Source of the DNA: Acidobacteria bacterium Ga0077551 | GTDB lineage: Bacteria > Pseudomonadota > Alphaproteobacteria > Caulobacterales > Hyphomonadaceae | Direction of reading: 5' to 3' | NCBI GenBank assembly: GCA_001464545.1 | Contig: LNFC01000012.1 | Coordinates: forward strand, 1 to 64,000 | Length of the DNA stretch: 64,000 nt | In this document: positions 8,553-20,268 of the stretch, piece after piece | How positions within the stretch are numbered: position 1 is the stretch's first letter | How the letters are laid out: every line of letters begins with the position of its first letter | The notes under the pieces: generated by a model | What the model saw: the letters and a program-made list of their open reading frames with translations, nothing else | Told to the model about the DNA's origin: nothing | Databases searched by the model: none | Made by a program: the position numbers and the translations under genes

Positions 8553-9779
8553 TCAGATCGCGCGCGGCGGGTATCCCGCCTGGGCAAGGGCATCGATGAC
8601 TTCCTGCGTATGCTGGCTGTCACGGGTTTCCATCAGGATGTCGAACTCAGCGCCCTTGGCCGGCACGTCAAGCGCGATCCGGTTGTGGGCGACTTCCATG
8701 ATATTGGCGCCGTTGTCGCCGATGATCTTGGAAACAAGTGCGAGCAGGCCCGGGCGGTCATCGCCGACGATGCGGATGCGGGCGAGCCGGTTCTCGCGCA
8801 CGAGGGCGCGGGTCAGCACCGAAGCGAGGAGACGCGTGTCGATATTGCCGCCGCAGAGGACCAGGCCAACCTTGCGGCCATAGAAGCGTGTCGGATGCGC
8901 GAGCAGCGCGGCGAGACCGGCGGCGCCTGCGCCTTCGGCAATCGTCTTCTCGACTTCGGCGAACAGCGTGATCGCGCGCTCGAGGTGTTCTTCCTCAACG
9001 AGGAGGATGTCGTCCAGCAGCTGCTCGGCGATGCGGCGCGTCAGCTTGCCGACTTCTTTCACGGCGATGCCTTCGGCGATTGTGGCGCCGCCCATCTTGG
9101 GCGTCTTGCCGCGCAGGGCGGCGTGCATGCAAGGGTACATCGCGGCTTCGACGCCGATGATCTTGATGTCCGGCTTCAGCGCCTTTGCCGCGACTGCGAT
9201 GCCGGAGATCAGTCCGCCGCCGCCGATGGGCACGACGAGGGTGTCGAGGTCTGGCTGATCGGCCAGCATTTCGAGCGCGATGGTGCCCTGGCCGGCGATG
9301 ATGTCGAGGTCATCGAACGGGTGGATGAAGACCAGGCCTTCCTTCTCGCCGAGCTTGAGGGCGTAGTCCTTCGCCTCGTCGAACATGAGGCCTTCGAGGA
9401 TGACCCGGGCGCCGTGGTCGCGGGTATGCTCGACCTTGTTGAAAGGCGTGGTCTCGGCCATCACGATCGTCGCCGGGATGCCGAGGCGGCGGGCATGGTA
9501 GGCGACGCCCTGGGCATGGTTACCGGCCGAGGCTGCAATCACGCCGCGGCGCTTTTCGTCGTCGGTCAGCTTGGACAGCTTGTTGAGCGCGCCGCGCTCC
9601 TTGAAGGCCGCCGTGTACTGGCGGTTCTCGAACTTGATCCAGATATCCGCCCCGGTAATCGCCGACAGGGTGCGCGAATGCGCCAGCTCCGTCCGCTCGA
9701 TGTTTCCTTCGAGGACTTTGGCGGCGGCCTGCACGTCGGCAAGCGTTACAAGGGGGTCTGGCGGCAAGGTATCGGGCAT
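8553..9779 (-). CDS. ilvA: threonine ammonia-lyase with C-terminal ACT domain
   Basis: FENRQYTAAFKERGALNKL PLP lysine motif, ASAGNHAQGVA, PIGGGGLISG. Confidence 0.9.
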   Translation of the reverse strand: MPDTLPPDPLVTLADVQAAAKVLEGNIERTELAHSRTLSAITGADIWIKFENRQYTAAFKERGALNKLSKLTDDEKRRGVIAASAGNHAQGVAYHARRLGIPATIVMAETTPFNKVEHTRDHGARVILEGLMFDEAKDYALKLGEKEGLVFIHPFDDLDIIAGQGTIALEMLADQPDLDTLVVPIGGGGLISGIAVAAKALKPDIKIIGVEAAMYPCMHAALRGKTPKMGGATIAEGIAVKEVGKLTRRIAEQLLDDILLVEEEHLERAITLFAEVEKTIAEGAGAAGLAALLAHPTRFYGRKVGLVLCGGNIDTRLLASVLTRALVRENRLARIRIVGDDRPGLLALVSKIIGDNGANIMEVAHNRIALDVPAKGAEFDILMETRDSQHTQEVIDALAQAGYPPRAI

Positions 9780-12785: not shown

Positions 12786-13919
12786 ATGCCCGTCATGAAT
12801 TTTCTCACCCAATGCGTGTTTGATGCTGGGGCGCTGAAACAGCTTGCGGCGCTGGCCAAGGGCAAGGGGATCACCCGGCCCTTCATCGTCACGGACGCGG
12901 GCATCAAGGCCTCCGGCATCCTGGCAAAGGTCGAGGATGCACTCGGCGTGGCGCCGGCCGGCGTGTTTGCCGAGACGGTCTCGAACCCGACCGAGACGCA
13001 GACGAAGATTGCGGCAAAGCTCTATAAGGAGTCCGGCGCAGACGGCATCATCGCGGTCGGCGGCGGCTCGTCCATGGACCACGCCAAGGCGATCGGCCTC
13101 CTGGCTTCCCATAGCGAACCGCTGGAAACCTACGCGGCGATCATCGGCGGCGCCAAGAAGATCGGCAAGATCCCGCCCCTGATCGCGATACCGACCACGG
13201 CAGGTACCGGCTCGGAAGTCTCGGTCGGCATGGTCATCATCATGGAGAATGGCCGCAAGGAAACCTTTGCCTCACCGAACCTGATCCCCGTGGTCGCGCT
13301 CTGCGATCCGGACCTGACGCTCGGCCTGCCCGCGGGTCTCACCGCGGCAACCGGCATGGACGCACTGACGCATTGTATCGAAGCGGTGCTGACACCGTCG
13401 ATCAATCCGCCTGCGGAAGGTATCGGCTATGACGGCGCGCAGCGCGCCTTCGGTCAGGGCATGCTGGTACGCGCGGTCAAGGACGGCTCGGACGCCGAAG
13501 CGCGCTGGCACATGATGATGGCGAGCTATGAGGGCGCGCTTGCCTTCGTGAAAGGCCTCGGCGGCGTGCATGCGCTAAGCCATGCGGCCGGGCGTCTGGA
13601 ACAGAAGAAGCTGCACCACGGCACGCTGAACGCCGTTTTCCTGCCCCACATCCTGCGCTTCCATCACGGCGCGGCGGACGCCAAATACGTCCGCCTGCGG
13701 CAGGTCATGGGCCTGAAAGCGGGCGCTGATCTGGCCGACGCGATTCAGGATCTCAACAACACCATTGGCATTCCGAAGAACCTGACGGCGATGGGACTCG
13801 CCGCATCGGACGCGCCGGGCATCGTCGACTACGCGCTGAAAGACCTCGCCCACTTCGGCAACCCGCGCCCGATGAGCGCAGACGACTATGCCAAGGTCTA
13901 CGAAACAGCGCTCGGCTAG
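12786..13919 (+). CDS. iron-containing alcohol dehydrogenase
   Basis: GGGSSMDHAKAIG, PTTAGTGSEVSVGMVI, GMDALTHCIEA, HALSHAAGRLEQKKLHHGTLNAVFLPHIL. Confidence 0.92.
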   Translation: MPVMNFLTQCVFDAGALKQLAALAKGKGITRPFIVTDAGIKASGILAKVEDALGVAPAGVFAETVSNPTETQTKIAAKLYKESGADGIIAVGGGSSMDHAKAIGLLASHSEPLETYAAIIGGAKKIGKIPPLIAIPTTAGTGSEVSVGMVIIMENGRKETFASPNLIPVVALCDPDLTLGLPAGLTAATGMDALTHCIEAVLTPSINPPAEGIGYDGAQRAFGQGMLVRAVKDGSDAEARWHMMMASYEGALAFVKGLGGVHALSHAAGRLEQKKLHHGTLNAVFLPHILRFHHGAADAKYVRLRQVMGLKAGADLADAIQDLNNTIGIPKNLTAMGLAASDAPGIVDYALKDLAHFGNPRPMSADDYAKVYETALG

Positions 13920-13940
13920 TGCCTGCCCGCTCCGTGGGCC

Positions 13941-13979
13941 GATCAGCCGGGGCTCGCGCTGAGCCCCGGCTGATCGGCT
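13941..13979. terminator. Bidirectional hairpin between convergent genes
   Basis: Perfect 17-bp arms CCGATCAGCCGGGGCTC / GAGCCCCGGCTGATCGG, 5-nt loop, no long U-tract. Confidence 0.6.
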
Positions 13980-13982
13980 GGT

Positions 13983-15038
13983 CTATTCCGCTTCGAGAAC
14001 CGGCAGGCCGAGCGCCTGTTCGATATCCGCCCAGCTGATAACCTTGAAGTTCTGGTCCTGCCCGGACTTCGGGTTGCCGTCGTCCTGAACGGTCAGTATG
14101 CCGCGCGGATAGCCAGGCAGCGCGCCGGAGAAGACGTCGAGACCGTCCGTATGCGTCACGGCGTCGATGCCGAGGGCGGCGTTCTCGCCGATGGAGAAGC
14201 TGCCCATCGGGGTGTGCGGGGCCTTGCGATCGTAGACCACGAACCGGTTTGCGGACTGGGCCGAGACGACGATCCAGCCGGCGCCGTCCCTGCCGCGCCA
14301 CAGCGAGACACCTTCGACATCCGCCACCAAGCCGGCCGCGCCGCCGACGACATCGATCTGCTCCGGCACAAGCGCGGCATCGCGGTAGGCCATCTTCCAG
14401 AGACCCTGATTTTCCTCGCCCACGAACAGCAGGCCCTGCACCTCGTCAAACACGCAGCCTTCCAGCTGGGTTGCCAGCTTTACCGTCTTCAGAAGTTCGC
14501 CGGTCAGCTCTGGGGGGCTCTCGGAAACGGCCCAGATTTCCACCGTTCCGTCCTTGTACGTCACACCTGCCAGGTCCCGGCCGCCTTCGCGTCCTGAGCA
14601 GATGCCATACGGCTCCAGGCGACCGGTCGGCACGTCGCCCCGGTGCGAAACGGCGCCTGTGGCGCGGTCGACCAGAAACACGGAAATCGCATTCACCTGG
14701 TCATTGCTGGCCACGGCGACATCATAGGGGCGATCCGCAGACTGACGGAGATCGACATTGTTGATCAGGCCGATCGGCAGACGCGCCGCTTCGCTTCCGT
14801 CGAGATTGTAGACGACGAGGCCTTCCTGCTTGTTGGTGCCGAGGATCAGCGATTTCGCCGCGTCCTGCGGGTGCAGCCAGAGGGCCGGATCATCCGCCGC
14901 GTCGCCGCGAGCACCGGCCGGGGCCGTCTCCATTGTGGCGGTGACGATGACCTGCCCGTCGATGACCGGAGGGGCGGACGCGCAGCCGGCGATGAGCGCG
15001 AAAGACGTGGCGGCGGCGAAGAGGGAGGGGCGCAACAT
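13983..15038 (-). CDS. beta-propeller phytase (3-phytase) lipoprotein
   Basis: GDAADDPALWLHPQDAAKSLILGTNKQEGLVVYNLDG is typical of BPP phytases; also VDVEGVSLW, YPRGILTVQDD, lipobox IAGC. Confidence 0.9.
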   Translation of the reverse strand: MLRPSLFAAATSFALIAGCASAPPVIDGQVIVTATMETAPAGARGDAADDPALWLHPQDAAKSLILGTNKQEGLVVYNLDGSEAARLPIGLINNVDLRQSADRPYDVAVASNDQVNAISVFLVDRATGAVSHRGDVPTGRLEPYGICSGREGGRDLAGVTYKDGTVEIWAVSESPPELTGELLKTVKLATQLEGCVFDEVQGLLFVGEENQGLWKMAYRDAALVPEQIDVVGGAAGLVADVEGVSLWRGRDGAGWIVVSAQSANRFVVYDRKAPHTPMGSFSIGENAALGIDAVTHTDGLDVFSGALPGYPRGILTVQDDGNPKSGQDQNFKVISWADIEQALGLPVLEAE

Positions 15039-15110
15039 GGAGGAATTTCCTTCTTGAATGAGAAGTCTAGGGGCATTGCCGGTCCGGACTGCCAAACGCC
15101 TGACTGGCAA

Positions 15111-15126
15111 TGTCAGCCAAATGTCA
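15111..15126 (+). promoter_or_regulatory. Putative Pho box (half-site pair) upstream of phytase gene
   Basis: TGTCA-N6-TGTCA with 11-bp period (TGTCAgccaaaTGTCA), 73-88 bp upstream of the phytase ATG. Confidence 0.4.
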
Positions 15127-16380
15127 GTCAGCTGAGCGGCGCTGATAGGCCAAGGTGGCTTCCGGCACGGGGCGGCCGGACATGTCTTCCGGCGTTGTAA
15201 AGACGCGCACGGTCATCTCGTCTTCGGTCAGTTCAAGATGCATCAGGCCCCAGATATTGCCCTTCGAGAACGGATTGGAAAGTCCCGGGTTGGCAGCGAG
15301 CTGGTTGGCCATGAATTTCGGATGAAGCGGCCGGTATTTGGAGCCCGCGCCGGAAACAAGCAGCGGCAAGGGCGGGCGGCCGGTGACGCCTTCGCTGCGG
15401 CAATCATCCTCATAGACCTCAAGCATGTGGTCATCGCCGGAGATGTAGACGTCGGCATGCTGACAAACAGCGCCCATGTAAAGCGCGCGTAAGGAGTGCG
15501 CCTTCTCGAACTTGCTGCCCCCGCCGGACCAGAGTGCATGATGGCCGATGACGATTTTCCAGCGGGCCCTGGACTCCGCGAGCGACTGGCTGAGCCATTC
15601 GACCATGCGCTTTTCGCCCTCCGTGGCGGGCTTCACGAAGTCGTCCCAGGCTTCCATTTCGCCGGTCCGGACTTCGCGGCCCTCCGCATCCAGATTGTTG
15701 ACATGCACCGATGTGCTGGCCAGCAACATTTCGGTGTCCACGACGAAGAGTTCGACGAAGCCTTCAAGGCCGGCTGGTTCGGCGCGGTAGAAAAAATCAG
15801 GCATCGTGAAATTGGGATGGTCCTGAAAGTAGTTCATCTGCGCCGTCGTGGCTTCGCGGGAGATGCGCCAGTCGTGATTTCCCATCAGGGCGTAGATGGT
15901 GAAACCCGGCGTACCGGCGCCCAGCTTGCCATAGGGACGATCCAGCATGTCGTAGAAGCGGCGCGCATCGGTGACGCCGTCAGCGCCGAGAGTGGCACCA
16001 TCGGGATAGATATTGTCGCCGACCATTGCCGCGAAATTGCAACCGAGCGTCCGGCAAATCTCGTCGGCAGCGAAGGCAACCGGATACATCCCGCTGGCTT
16101 CGATAAAGCCGCCGAGGGCGGATTCGAAAACCCAGGGCGTTGGTGTGAATCCGGCCATGTCCGGGTTGCGTTCCAGCCAGTCGATGGCCTGCGCGGAAAG
16201 ATAGGAACCCAGCGTGCGGTGCGGGGTGTCCTCTTCGTCATAGCGCTCGTATGAGGGAATGTAGCCGGTGTCTCCCACGACAGCGAACCGCGCCGTCCGG
16301 CTGTCTGCACTTGCAGTGCCCGTATGGCTACATGCGGAAAGCGCCAACGCCAGGACCCCGACCATAAGGGTTTTCTGCAT
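15124..16380 (-). CDS. metallophosphoesterase lipoprotein (purple acid phosphatase-like)
   Basis: Metallophosphoesterase motifs FAVVGDTGY, VGDNIYPDG, MGNHDW, VIGHHALW, YISGDDHMLE; lipobox LSAC. Confidence 0.88.
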   Translation of the reverse strand: MQKTLMVGVLALALSACSHTGTASADSRTARFAVVGDTGYIPSYERYDEEDTPHRTLGSYLSAQAIDWLERNPDMAGFTPTPWVFESALGGFIEASGMYPVAFAADEICRTLGCNFAAMVGDNIYPDGATLGADGVTDARRFYDMLDRPYGKLGAGTPGFTIYALMGNHDWRISREATTAQMNYFQDHPNFTMPDFFYRAEPAGLEGFVELFVVDTEMLLASTSVHVNNLDAEGREVRTGEMEAWDDFVKPATEGEKRMVEWLSQSLAESRARWKIVIGHHALWSGGGSKFEKAHSLRALYMGAVCQHADVYISGDDHMLEVYEDDCRSEGVTGRPPLPLLVSGAGSKYRPLHPKFMANQLAANPGLSNPFSKGNIWGLMHLELTEDEMTVRVFTTPEDMSGRPVPEATLAYQRRSAD

Positions 16381-16422
16381 GACGCTCTCCTCCTGAACTC
16401 TTGAATCTATCCCGAAGGAAGC

Positions 16423-16453
16423 CACCGGTCCTGGCATCTCGCCAGGACCGGTG
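16423..16453 (-). terminator. Hairpin between receptor relic and metallophosphoesterase gene
   Basis: Perfect 13-bp arms CACCGGTCCTGGC / GCCAGGACCGGTG, 5-nt loop. Confidence 0.5.
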
Positions 16454-16457
16454 CATC

Positions 16458-16640
16458 TCATCGGAAGTTCGCTTTGACACCAAACTTCGCGGTCCAGCTG
16501 TATTCTTCATACTGAAGAAGACGATCATGGTCCGGACCTTCCTGGTAGGCTGTATAGGTCGCGTCGTTCAGGTTCACAAGTTCGCAAAAGGATCCGGAAG
16601 TTCTGGTTGGCGGCGCCGAAGCGCAGGCCGAATCGGCAAA
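16458..16640 (-). pseudogene. Relic of the C-terminus of a TonB-dependent receptor
   Basis: Minus frame ends ...ELVNLNDATYTAYQEGPDHDRLLQYEEYSWTAKFGVKANFR*, a typical TBDR C-terminus; upstream residues GLRFGAANQ fall in another frame; no N-terminal part. Confidence 0.65.
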
Positions 16641-16747
16641 AACAGAGGCGGCAGCACGGAGAGTTGGGCTTAGTATGTGACAGGTCTCCTTCAGTTCAGC
16701 GCGGCGATTGGCGCCGCCATATCGCTCTGCTGTGACACAAAAGATAC

Positions 16748-16774
16748 TGTCACAAAAATGATACTGATCCGTCA
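16748..16774 (+). promoter_or_regulatory. Putative Pho box, three 11-bp-phased half-sites, upstream of TonB receptor
   Basis: TGTCA(16748)-N6-TGATA(16759)-N6-CGTCA(16770), ending 54 bp before ATG 16829; overlaps dyad TGTGACA-N10-TGTCACA (16731-16754). Confidence 0.4.
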
Positions 16775-16828
16775 CCTGATTGCGAAGATCCAGTGGTAGC
16801 CGCCCTGCATAGACAACTGGGGTGTTCC

Positions 16829-19177
16829 ATGAAAACCAAACTTTCTCTCCTTGCCGGGGCGAGCTTCGTCACGCTTTGCCTGAGCGCAGCCATCTCCGCA
16901 TCCGCGCAGACTGCGCCGGCGGCAACCACCGAAGAGGAGGATCCGATCCTCCGTGCCGAGACGGTCGTGGTTCAGGGCGAGATCACCTATCGCAACCGCA
17001 GCGAAGAAACCGTCCAGACGCTCGAATATGGCCAGGACTATTTCCAGCGCTTCGAGCCGCTGACCGCCGGCGACGCCCTCAAGCGCGTGCCTTCGGTTAC
17101 CTTCCTGTCCGACGTGATCGAGAGCGACGGCGCACGTCTGCGCGGCCTCGACCCGGGCTACACCCAGATCCTCATCAACGGCGAAAAGGTTCCCGGTTCG
17201 AACGCCGACCGTTCCTTCTTCCTCGACCGCATCCCGGCCGAACTGATCGACCGCGTCGAAATCGTCCGCTCCTCGTCGGCCCGCCGTTCGGGTGACGCCC
17301 TTGCGGGTACACTGAACATCGTCCTGCGTGACGGCTACGAACTGGACGGCGGCTATATCCGCGTTGGCGGTCTGGCATTCGACGACGGCGAGTTCAAGGA
17401 AAGCCTCGGCGGCGTCTATGGCGGCGCAGTTGGTCCGGGCCGCCTTTTGCTCGGCGCAAACCTGCAGGGCCGTTACAACCCGAAACTCAAGTCTTCGCAG
17501 CGCTTCGGCGACAGCCCTGAGAATAACCCGACCTTCCGCGTCGATGATTTCGACAACCGCGAAGACCAGACCGACACGCGCGACGGCACGGATTACTCCT
17601 TCAACGCCGATTACAGCATCGATTCCGACGACGGCACCGACATCAACCTTTCCGGCTTCTACGTGAAGACCGAAAGGACTGAAGACGAACGTTCGTTCGA
17701 GTATGACGATCCGACCGCAATCACCGGTCCGGTGCGCCGCGCCGTTGCGGGCAACCTTCTGACCGACAATGCCAACCTCAACGAGATCAACCAGGAGAAC
17801 TACTCCCTGCGTGCGGTCGTCGAGGAAGAATGGGCGGCGGGTGAAACCACTCTGAAAGTCGGCCTCGCGAATTTCGACGAGAGCCAGTACGAGACGGAAG
17901 ACGAAATCGACTTTGATCGCACCACGCCGCGTTACACGGGCGATCTTACGATTGTCGGTATCGTCGATGAAGAGTTCTTCGGCGAATTCGCGCATGAGAT
18001 CGAGACCGGCGACAACACCGAGTTTGAGTTCGGCCTCTTCTATCAGGTTAAGCAACGCGACACCGACATTCGCACGCAGCGCAACCGGTTCAACGTACCG
18101 GTTGCCCTCCGCAATACCTGGGATCAATTCTCGAACAACCCGGAAGTGGCCCGGATCGGCTGGACGAACCTGCAGCCCGTTGTTGGTGGCCTGAGCCAGA
18201 TTGACGAGGAACGTTTCGACGGCTTTGCCGTGCTGAACGGCGAAAGCGGCCCCCTCGCCTGGGAAGCCGGCCTTCGCTACGAGAACACGACAGTCGACAT
18301 CACGGACCTCACCGTGGCTCCGGCCGATCGCGCCACGAACAACAACTTCTCGTTCTTGCTGCCTTCGGCTCACCTGAAGTATGACGTCACCGCTGCCGAC
18401 CGGATTTCCGCCTCCGTGGCGCGCACGGTCCGCCGGCCCAACTTCGACTTCATCTCGCCGGCGCTGCTAGAAGCCGAACTTGGCGACAACGACCTGCTCG
18501 GCAATCCGGACCTTGAGCCGGAAAGCGCCTGGGGCGCCGATCTCGGCTACGAGCGCCGCCTCGGTTCGGCCGGCGTGTTCGGGGTCAACCTGTTCTACCG
18601 CGACGTCAAAGACCTGGTTGAAGTCGCCAACACCGGCGTTGAAGGCTCGGAAGGGCCCGGCACCTTTGTGCTGCAGCCGCAGAACACCGGTGATGGCAGT
18701 GTCTACGGTATCGAACTCGACCTCTCCACGCCGCTGACCGTCGTTGGCCTCCCGAATACGGGTGCCTTCGCCAACTTCTCCTGGCTCGACAGCGATATCG
18801 AAGACGGGTTCGGATCGCGCCGCTTCAACGATCAATCCGAGTTCGTCTACAACTTCGGTTTCATCCACGACCTCGTTGCGTTGGACGCGGCTTTCGGCGC
18901 AACCTATCGCAAGCAGGGTGACGCTTTCGGCCGCGTGATCGGCGAAGAGATCACCACGTCTTATGGCGCCGACCTTGAAGTCTTCATCGAGAAACGCCTC
19001 GGTGACAGCTTCACGATCCGGGCCGTCGGCTCGAACCTGCTGAACGGTTCGAAGGACGAAGTGTTCAACAAGTTCACCACGATCCAGGACCAGATCGACC
19101 GCAGCTTTGACGAGTACGAACTCGAATCCGAAGAAGCCGGCCCGGTATTCCAGCTCATGGCCCGCTACGCTTTCTGA
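16829..19177 (+). CDS. TonB-dependent receptor
   Basis: Signal peptide; plug domain DALKRVPSVTFLSDVIESDGARLRGLDPGYTQILINGEKVPG, DRVEIVRSSSARRSGDALAGTLNIVLR; C-terminal MARYAF. Confidence 0.93.
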   Translation: MKTKLSLLAGASFVTLCLSAAISASAQTAPAATTEEEDPILRAETVVVQGEITYRNRSEETVQTLEYGQDYFQRFEPLTAGDALKRVPSVTFLSDVIESDGARLRGLDPGYTQILINGEKVPGSNADRSFFLDRIPAELIDRVEIVRSSSARRSGDALAGTLNIVLRDGYELDGGYIRVGGLAFDDGEFKESLGGVYGGAVGPGRLLLGANLQGRYNPKLKSSQRFGDSPENNPTFRVDDFDNREDQTDTRDGTDYSFNADYSIDSDDGTDINLSGFYVKTERTEDERSFEYDDPTAITGPVRRAVAGNLLTDNANLNEINQENYSLRAVVEEEWAAGETTLKVGLANFDESQYETEDEIDFDRTTPRYTGDLTIVGIVDEEFFGEFAHEIETGDNTEFEFGLFYQVKQRDTDIRTQRNRFNVPVALRNTWDQFSNNPEVARIGWTNLQPVVGGLSQIDEERFDGFAVLNGESGPLAWEAGLRYENTTVDITDLTVAPADRATNNNFSFLLPSAHLKYDVTAADRISASVARTVRRPNFDFISPALLEAELGDNDLLGNPDLEPESAWGADLGYERRLGSAGVFGVNLFYRDVKDLVEVANTGVEGSEGPGTFVLQPQNTGDGSVYGIELDLSTPLTVVGLPNTGAFANFSWLDSDIEDGFGSRRFNDQSEFVYNFGFIHDLVALDAAFGATYRKQGDAFGRVIGEEITTSYGADLEVFIEKRLGDSFTIRAVGSNLLNGSKDEVFNKFTTIQDQIDRSFDEYELESEEAGPVFQLMARYAF

Positions 19178-19203
19178 TCCGGTCCTCAGCACACAGATGA
19201 AGG

Positions 19204-19237
19204 CGGGCCGCAGCACTTTGCTGCGGCCCGTTTTCGT
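19204..19237 (+). terminator. Rho-independent terminator
   Basis: CGGGCCGCAGC-acttt-GCTGCGGCCCG followed by TTTTCGTT. Confidence 0.85.
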
Positions 19238-19243
19238 TGGGGC

Positions 19244-20113
19244 TCAGCCCCGCGTCTTTGACCAGGCCGCCAGCCGGGCGGTATAGGCGCGCGGCTTCTC
19301 GCCCGCGAGGCGGCGCGAAGTGCCTAAGGCTCGGCGCAACGCGCGGCGGCGGGCTTTGGCGATCAACGCCAGCGCGGTCGCGGCATCGGGTTTGGCAAGC
19401 AGATGCACCGGCACGTCGATTAGGGCGGCTTCCAGCAGGCCGAGATCGCGCCAGTCGCCGAGATCATCGCAGAGCCGTTCGGCCGCAGCGGCGTAGCCGT
19501 CCATCACTTCCGGAAAGGCGCCGCGCAGCAGCAGCGTCTGGTACCAGTGATCCTTCGCGCGTTTGCGGAACTCATGCACGGGCTCTTCGTCCCGGGCGCG
19601 CCGTGCCGCTTCGAAGGACTTGCGGAACCGGCGATGGCTGCGCTGCAGGCCCGGCGCGAGGGCGTGCCAGCCGGTTTGCGTCAGCGTCCAGGATTGCGCG
19701 CGCCCGGCCGCTGCGGCCATCTCTCCGGCGAAGGTTCCCAGCAGGCGTTTCTGCGCGGCGGTGCCAGCAGCGCGGCGCTTGTTGAGGGCAGCGCCAAGGT
19801 TAGCGGAGACGTCCTCCGGCAGGTCCAGCCGGGCCAGCGTTTCGGCCAAGGCGCCCTTGTCTCTCAGCGCGGACAGGCGGGCCGCCGCGTCCCGCAGGAC
19901 GGCGATCTCTTCGCGGGCCTCCGGGAAAACCGGCGCGACCAGGCGCAGCAGGGCGCGCAGCCGTTTGGTCGCCTTGCGGCCTTCATGCACCTTGCGGGGA
20001 AGCGGCACTGACTTGTCCGCCAGTGCTGAGCCAATGGCCGCGAACTCCTCCGCCGCAATCCTGCGCAGGGCTTCGGTCGTCGACGCGTCGCCTGACTTGA
20101 ACCTGTAGGCCAT
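19244..20113 (-). CDS. CHAD domain-containing protein
   Basis: VHEGRKATKRLRALLRLVAPVF and EPVHEFRKRAKDHWYQTLLL: paired conserved His helices of CHAD domains. Confidence 0.88.
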   Translation of the reverse strand: MAYRFKSGDASTTEALRRIAAEEFAAIGSALADKSVPLPRKVHEGRKATKRLRALLRLVAPVFPEAREEIAVLRDAAARLSALRDKGALAETLARLDLPEDVSANLGAALNKRRAAGTAAQKRLLGTFAGEMAAAAGRAQSWTLTQTGWHALAPGLQRSHRRFRKSFEAARRARDEEPVHEFRKRAKDHWYQTLLLRGAFPEVMDGYAAAAERLCDDLGDWRDLGLLEAALIDVPVHLLAKPDAATALALIAKARRRALRRALGTSRRLAGEKPRAYTARLAAWSKTRG

Positions 20114-20268
20114 CGTGTCGCCGGACCTCCTCGCGCCCAGATTGCACAGGCAAATCCGCGCCGCCAATGCTCTCGCGCGGGCGGCGACTACAAGAATCTG
20201 GAGGGTTTATGCCGGCCCGCCTTTAGGCCCTTCCCGAACGCAGGCGAATCCGCCGATACAGCTGGTCC

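Follow-up and report, generated by a model that had tools for sequence, protein, structure and literature searches.

The locus studied here raises the question of whether a beta-propeller phytase, a metallophosphoesterase (MPE) and a TonB-dependent receptor (TBDR) act together in phosphate scavenging, and of how these genes came to be neighbors. An earlier note on this DNA had described the two enzymes on one strand, divergent from the receptor. This observation is real and was confirmed by Pfam matches and coordinates, which placed all three genes where they had been reported within the window, i.e., the whole stretch of 64,000 nucleotides that was analyzed. The host, a marine bacterium, has a Hyphomonas-like genome of 3.08 Mb (3,080,578 bases) in 25 contigs. 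The reading favored here, with a probability of about 0.6, is that of a phosphate-starvation cassette for inositol phosphates which was assembled by rearrangement. It builds on direct observations, namely the gene content, the conserved phytase-TBDR pairing, the Pho-box matches, the phosphatase fold of the MPE and the scar of the MPE insertion.

Enzymes, receptor and flanking genes

The phytase (13983 to 15038, minus strand, 351 residues) starts with the ATG at 15038 and matched PF02333 with E=5.6e-60 and 203.7 bits, well above the curated cut-off of 21 and across most of the domain (profile positions 30-358 of 375, Pfam search). Its best solved relatives are Bacillus 3-phytases (3amr, 1e-47; 1poo). 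The DDPA, NNVD, EG (near 211), DxEG (near 260) and TDG segments, which we take to be the active site of the Bacillus phytases, are all aligned and kept with respect to both structures; the arginine of the Bacillus ASNR segment is without a counterpart. Phytases of this kind are common, being found in 84 of the 105 genomes of the family and in 221 of the 398 genomes of the order. Broken copies were also encountered (L067 in G061, L068 in G063 and L173 in G049), in the form of a phytase lacking its N-terminal half, a phytase split over two frames and a neighboring TBDR split in two frames. Besides, open frames of about 710 residues with two tandem phytase domains occur at L216, L222 and L223 (G095, G101 and G023).

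The MPE (15124 to 16380, minus strand, 418 residues) matched PF00149 with E=2.9e-09. Both enzymes had been described as lipoproteins with family motifs, and this was borne out by their lipoboxes, LIAGC in the phytase and LSAC in the MPE, together with the two Pfam matches. By sequence, the only solved relatives of the MPE are mammalian purple acid phosphatases (PAPs; TRAP chains, E ~1e-7). A structure model of moderate confidence (mean pLDDT 71.6) was used for a fold search, in which pig, human and rat purple acid phosphatases came out best (E 1e-13 to 1e-16, target TM ~0.75), all of them TRAP-type, which points to a purple acid phosphatase fold. The protein carries GDTG, GNHD and VIGHH, and GDxG, GDNIY, GNHDW and GHHAxW are kept in an alignment of nine homologues. 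Of the four motifs of purple acid phosphatases and phytases (GDxG, GNH[DE], VxxxH and GHxH; PMC12406696), the fourth is replaced by GDDH in all nine. Because of this replacement, the MPE is called PAP-like here and is not filed as a PAP.

The receptor, TBDR-A (16829 to 19177, plus strand, 782 residues), belongs to a phytase-linked family. It is a TonB-dependent receptor by profile matches to plug (PF07715) and barrel (PF00593), both above cut-off, and by its aromatic C-terminus (RYAF). It falls outside TIGR01782 (TonB-Xanth-Caul), on which it scored 164 bits against the required 310, whereas other receptors paired with phytase or MPE reached 573-606 bits. A PF13715 domain was absent in the Pfam search. 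No NCBIfam receptor model, whether for siderophores, heme, B12 or others, was matched by TBDR-A above its curated cut-off; the CirA model gave 57.7 of 745 bits and the remaining models were lower relative to their cut-offs. CirA, a catecholate siderophore receptor, is also its best solved relative by sequence, the resemblance covering the plug region and, in the barrel, a single short segment only. A clustering with characterized siderophore or carbohydrate receptors, which the earlier note had named as speaking against its proposal, was thus not seen as far as these comparisons reach. A second, partial TBDR-A lies away from the phytase in G072 (contig C15:62681-64582; 96% identity over residues 149-782).

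On one side, the cassette is flanked by genes for an iron-type alcohol dehydrogenase, OmpW and an ABC transporter. A very stable 18-pair hairpin stands at 13915-13990 of the window, between the convergent phytase and alcohol dehydrogenase genes, and is probably the terminator of both. On the other side, a CHAD-domain protein (19244 to 20167, minus strand; PF05235, 1.4e-26) bounds the receptor slot, as synteny indicates. CHAD proteins are known to bind polyphosphate. In receptor-less Hyphomonas genomes (L054, L055, L056, L059, L061 and L062), the CHAD protein lies directly upstream of the phytase, in the same direction. Farther right, the scanned proteins were ordinary (EPSP synthase, a ribosomal S1-type protein, sigma-54, SecA and another TBDR). 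The phosphate genes thus form a small cassette and no large island.

A rearrangement scar between MPE and receptor

The closest relatives, G060 and G072, lack the MPE at this place; their phytase and TBDR-A stand back to back, and about 150 bases separate the two coding regions. Positions 16609 to 19300 of the window share 91-92% identity with these genomes (92% with G072). This segment retains the old promoter and some 25 codons from the beginning of the former phytase gene, in which the start codon ATG is now ATA. This remnant of the 5' end of the former phytase gene (16605 to 16676, minus strand; 71% match to the N-terminus of the G072 phytase) is joined at 16604/16605 to a second remnant, the last ~43 codons and the stop of a different TBDR (16458 to 16604, minus strand). 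Over 42 residues, the latter shares 83% identity with the receptor encoded immediately upstream of the MPE in G063 (L033), and G042 is similar at the DNA level. The TBDR tail is followed by a strong hairpin (16423 to 16453, minus strand; fold z-score -5.4), the MPE, a new leader with a Pho box, and the phytase. A hairpin comparable in place and different in sequence occurs in TBDR-MPE loci of other Hyphomonas (L033 and L137). The dead phytase 5' end, the TBDR tail and the hairpin (16423-16676) had been missed by the earlier reader.

The windowed identity of the phytase completes the picture: in comparison with G060, G071 and G072 it amounts to 86-88% in the body and to only 62-69% in the first 100 bases. 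The scar shows that the MPE was added later, together with the end of a TBDR-MPE unit. The simplest reading of these sequences is that a piece ending such a unit would have been inserted into the phytase 5' end, the phytase start having been rebuilt from another source. An assembly error appears unlikely, because the junctions are located within a long contig and their sequences by now differ from those they came from.

Other histories were considered and set aside. An early presence of the MPE at the locus was rejected, because 36 of the 41 other Hyphomonas genomes lack it, as do all near relatives, and those that have it carry it elsewhere. A replacement of the whole phytase allele together with the MPE is contradicted by the phytase body: among G060, G071 and G072 the bodies are 87-90% identical, and the window's copy is equally close to them, differing only in the first ~100 bases. 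A TBDR-MPE place conserved in the subclade and later moved was not supported; for one of the genes that flank the TBDR-MPE locus, the subclade has no more than a distant relative. Finally, an intrinsic terminator after the remnant was not retained, the hairpin being present and the scan finding no T-run.

In G067 (L053, around 8634-8890), a second phytase start region with the motif CTGACAAATCGCTGACAG (CTGACAN5CTGACA) lies downstream of an older, disused start, and no MPE is present. The DNA may have broken here at the same place, independently or in a related event; this similarly doubled start suggests that the spot was broken more than once.

Phytase-receptor pairing, receptor exchange and Pho boxes

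The earlier note had proposed a synteny search for phytase-TBDR pairs, and the pairing proved to be conserved. A TBDR is the neighboring gene (gap up to ~1.2 kb) in 62 of the 80 phytase loci fetched from the family, a count obtained with search profiles for two TBDR classes, so that other kinds may be missed; elsewhere in the same 80 stretches only two further TBDRs were present. Orthologues of TBDR-A occur in 70 of the 398 genomes of the order, some of which are draft or metagenome assemblies. Among the 57 Caulobacterales copies of sufficient length, 39 are phytase-linked (38 counted directly plus that of the window): 30 are divergent from the phytase, including the window's own with the MPE in between, 9 are co-directional and 18 are without phytase. 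On the receptor tree, the layout label has to change 13 times when all three states are counted and at least 5 times for the co-directional state, and linkage survives at least five changes between the divergent and the co-directional layout. That the genes were rearranged and yet stayed together is the strongest evidence for a shared function. Basic residues special to the phytase-linked receptors were sought and none was found, the unlinked copies keeping the same conserved ones. Hence, as 18 of the 57 copies keep these residues without a phytase, the ligand of TBDR-A may not be tied to this enzyme.

The receptor itself varies beside a constant enzyme. In Hyphomonas, the slot next to the same phytase, bordered by alcohol dehydrogenase and OmpW on one side and CHAD on the other, holds no receptor (for example in G056, G058, G045 and G042), TBDR-A (G060, G072, G073, G067 and G069) or an unrelated receptor of ~930 residues (G071 and G061). 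In most of the family, the long receptor type precedes the phytase in the same direction. Similarly, when the MPE loci L031 and L032 are compared with L033 and L137, the flanking genes are 82-95% and the MPEs 86-88% identical, whereas the receptors directly upstream are only 30% identical. The same neighborhood and the same MPE with such different receptors imply that the receptor was replaced in place. As read from these comparisons, the enzyme is thus conserved at both the phytase and the MPE loci, and the receptor is what was replaced.

Putative Pho boxes had also been proposed at this locus. With the consensus CTGWCAYN4CTGWCAY, an exact match, CTGACATTTGGCTGACAT, was found at 15110 to 15127 (minus strand), where it overlaps the stop of the MPE and lies 72 bases ahead of the phytase ATG. 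The 3,080,578-base genome holds just one further exact match (G000 contig C21:45-62), which stands at a contig end with its gene out of view. With one mismatch allowed, the pattern occurs 9 times in the whole genome and its reversed control once. In the window alone, with up to 2 mismatches, the pattern was not above chance (3 found, 2.4 expected), so that the argument draws its strength from the exact match and from conservation. On the receptor side, the promoter carries three Pho-box-like heptamers with an 11-base period (16747 to 16775, plus strand): CTGTCAC, ATGATAC and CCGTCAC, separated by AAAA and TGAT. The first pair scores 12/14, and the outer two are kept in the equivalent sequences of G060, G072, G073, G069 and G071. 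A strict triple Pho box gave no match at 3 mismatches. A promoter score of at least 12/14 was reached in 17 of 38 linked and 3 of 17 unlinked TBDR-A copies, and in 0-5 of 100 shuffles per TBDR-A promoter. Upstream sites of the kind expected for the Pho regulon are therefore present before both genes, exact for the phytase, weaker and conserved for the receptor. The host genome also encodes PhoB (347 bits, above the curated cut-off) and has two pst permease matches on contig C14, with a box of type TCGTCACTGAACTGTCAC ahead of the pst genes.

Proposed function and relation to known systems

According to the favored reading, PhoB would respond to phosphate limitation by acting at two places, the box ahead of the phytase and the divergent promoter at about 16750. 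Located presumably in the outer membrane or the periplasm, the phytase would strip phosphates from phytate. TBDR-A, judging from its gene neighborhood, may import phytate, its complex with a metal, or lower inositol phosphates through the outer membrane. The products left by the phytase, or other organophosphates, would be dephosphorylated further by the MPE, and Pst would take up the phosphate released. The remnant, the MPE and the phytase may share one transcript. Two observations speak against such a scheme: the MPE is separated from the old promoter by the strong hairpin, and it is without the GHxH motif of purple acid phytases. Moreover, because the MPE is found at this place in no other genome, its cooperation with the phytase has not been tested by evolution. 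A more far-reaching proposal, which we regard as tentative, is that the TBDR-A family would consist of inositol phosphate importers and represent one of several unrelated receptor types swapped beside a fixed phosphatase, thus retuning phospho-compound uptake; here, the phosphatase of a second receptor-phosphatase pair would have joined the first pair, and the two enzymes would together break phytate down completely.

TBDR-A could instead be a general importer of organophosphates or phospho-oligomers (nucleotides, glycerophosphodiesters or phosphorylated glycans), with the phytase as one of several possible adjoining enzymes. The 18 copies without phytase, the unrelated receptors beside the same phytase and the pairing of the MPE with two such dissimilar receptor types fit this proposal. 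However, no other phosphatase gene was recognized beside the unlinked copies, as inspected by eye and with a few Pfam scans, and the partner, where present, is the phytase, so that we hold a general importer to be rather unlikely. Alternatively, phytate is a strong iron chelator, and the receptor might take up iron or another metal as the phytate complex, the phytase freeing the metal by destroying the chelator. Selection would favor the same gene pair in that case, and the closest solved structure being CirA agrees with it. We nevertheless consider metal uptake improbable, as the sites detected are of the Pho type, CirA is matched only in part and with a score far short of the family cut-off, and the phytase-linked transporter of Flavobacterium responds to phosphate depletion (PMC8115612). 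A mere chance neighborhood of unrelated genes could be argued from the MPE, an accidental insertion at this place in this genome only; for phytase and receptor it is already contradicted by their adjacency (62/80 and 39/57), kept through the layout changes, which makes it highly improbable overall.

The proposed cassette for inositol phosphates is in line with several previous studies. In Flavobacterium johnsoniae, a phytase (Fjoh_1367) and a TonB-dependent transporter (Fjoh_1368) are both induced at low phosphate (PMC8115612); as here, a PF02333 phytase adjoins the transporter, but Fjoh_1368 is of the Bacteroidetes type with PF13715, which TBDR-A does not have, and neither an MPE nor a rearrangement is described there. 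The marine alphaproteobacterium Citromicrobium bathyomarinum JL354, compared by description only, likewise has a transporter beside a phytase, with phytic acid proposed as the substrate (PMC3400609); that report concerns one genome and describes no Pho box, receptor classes or gene exchange. In Caulobacter crescentus, of the same order, the PhoB regulon contains phytase and TBDRs (PMC11208175), a likeness drawn from regulon content. Moreover, the Caulobacter phytase is needed for good growth on phytate (cited in PMC8963506) and is also controlled by the two-component system UrpRS (PMC11208175, PMC8963506). From these published pairs and this regulon, the kind of system is already known, and the phytase-TBDR pairing as such is already published. 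The scavenging role suggested in the earlier note hence agrees with conserved synteny, Pho-box-like sites and precedent (PMC8115612, PMC11208175, PMC3400609), although its trio is not an old island, the MPE having arrived by rearrangement.

Regarding the MPE, fold, GDxG, GNHD and VxxxH are shared with mammalian-type (TRAP-like) PAPs and with the marine PAP phytases of clade XP, which carry GDWG, GNHD, VVGHH and GHDH (PMC12406696); it differs from both by the invariant GDDH in place of GHxH, and its activity is a predicted one. As hydrolysis by beta-propeller phytases stops at Ins(2,4,6)P3 (PMC12406696), an enzyme going further would be a useful addition. In the literature consulted, we found no report showing phytate transport by a TBDR, and no description of the TBDR-A class, of in-place receptor exchange beside a constant phosphatase at two loci, or of a PAP-like insertion into a phytase-receptor pair. 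In comparison with the known systems, a receptor kept beside the phytase through repeated layout changes offers a clean genetic candidate. Besides, the locus shows how such units are built: the enzyme stays constant while the receptor changes, and the arrival of a second enzyme has left a readable scar.
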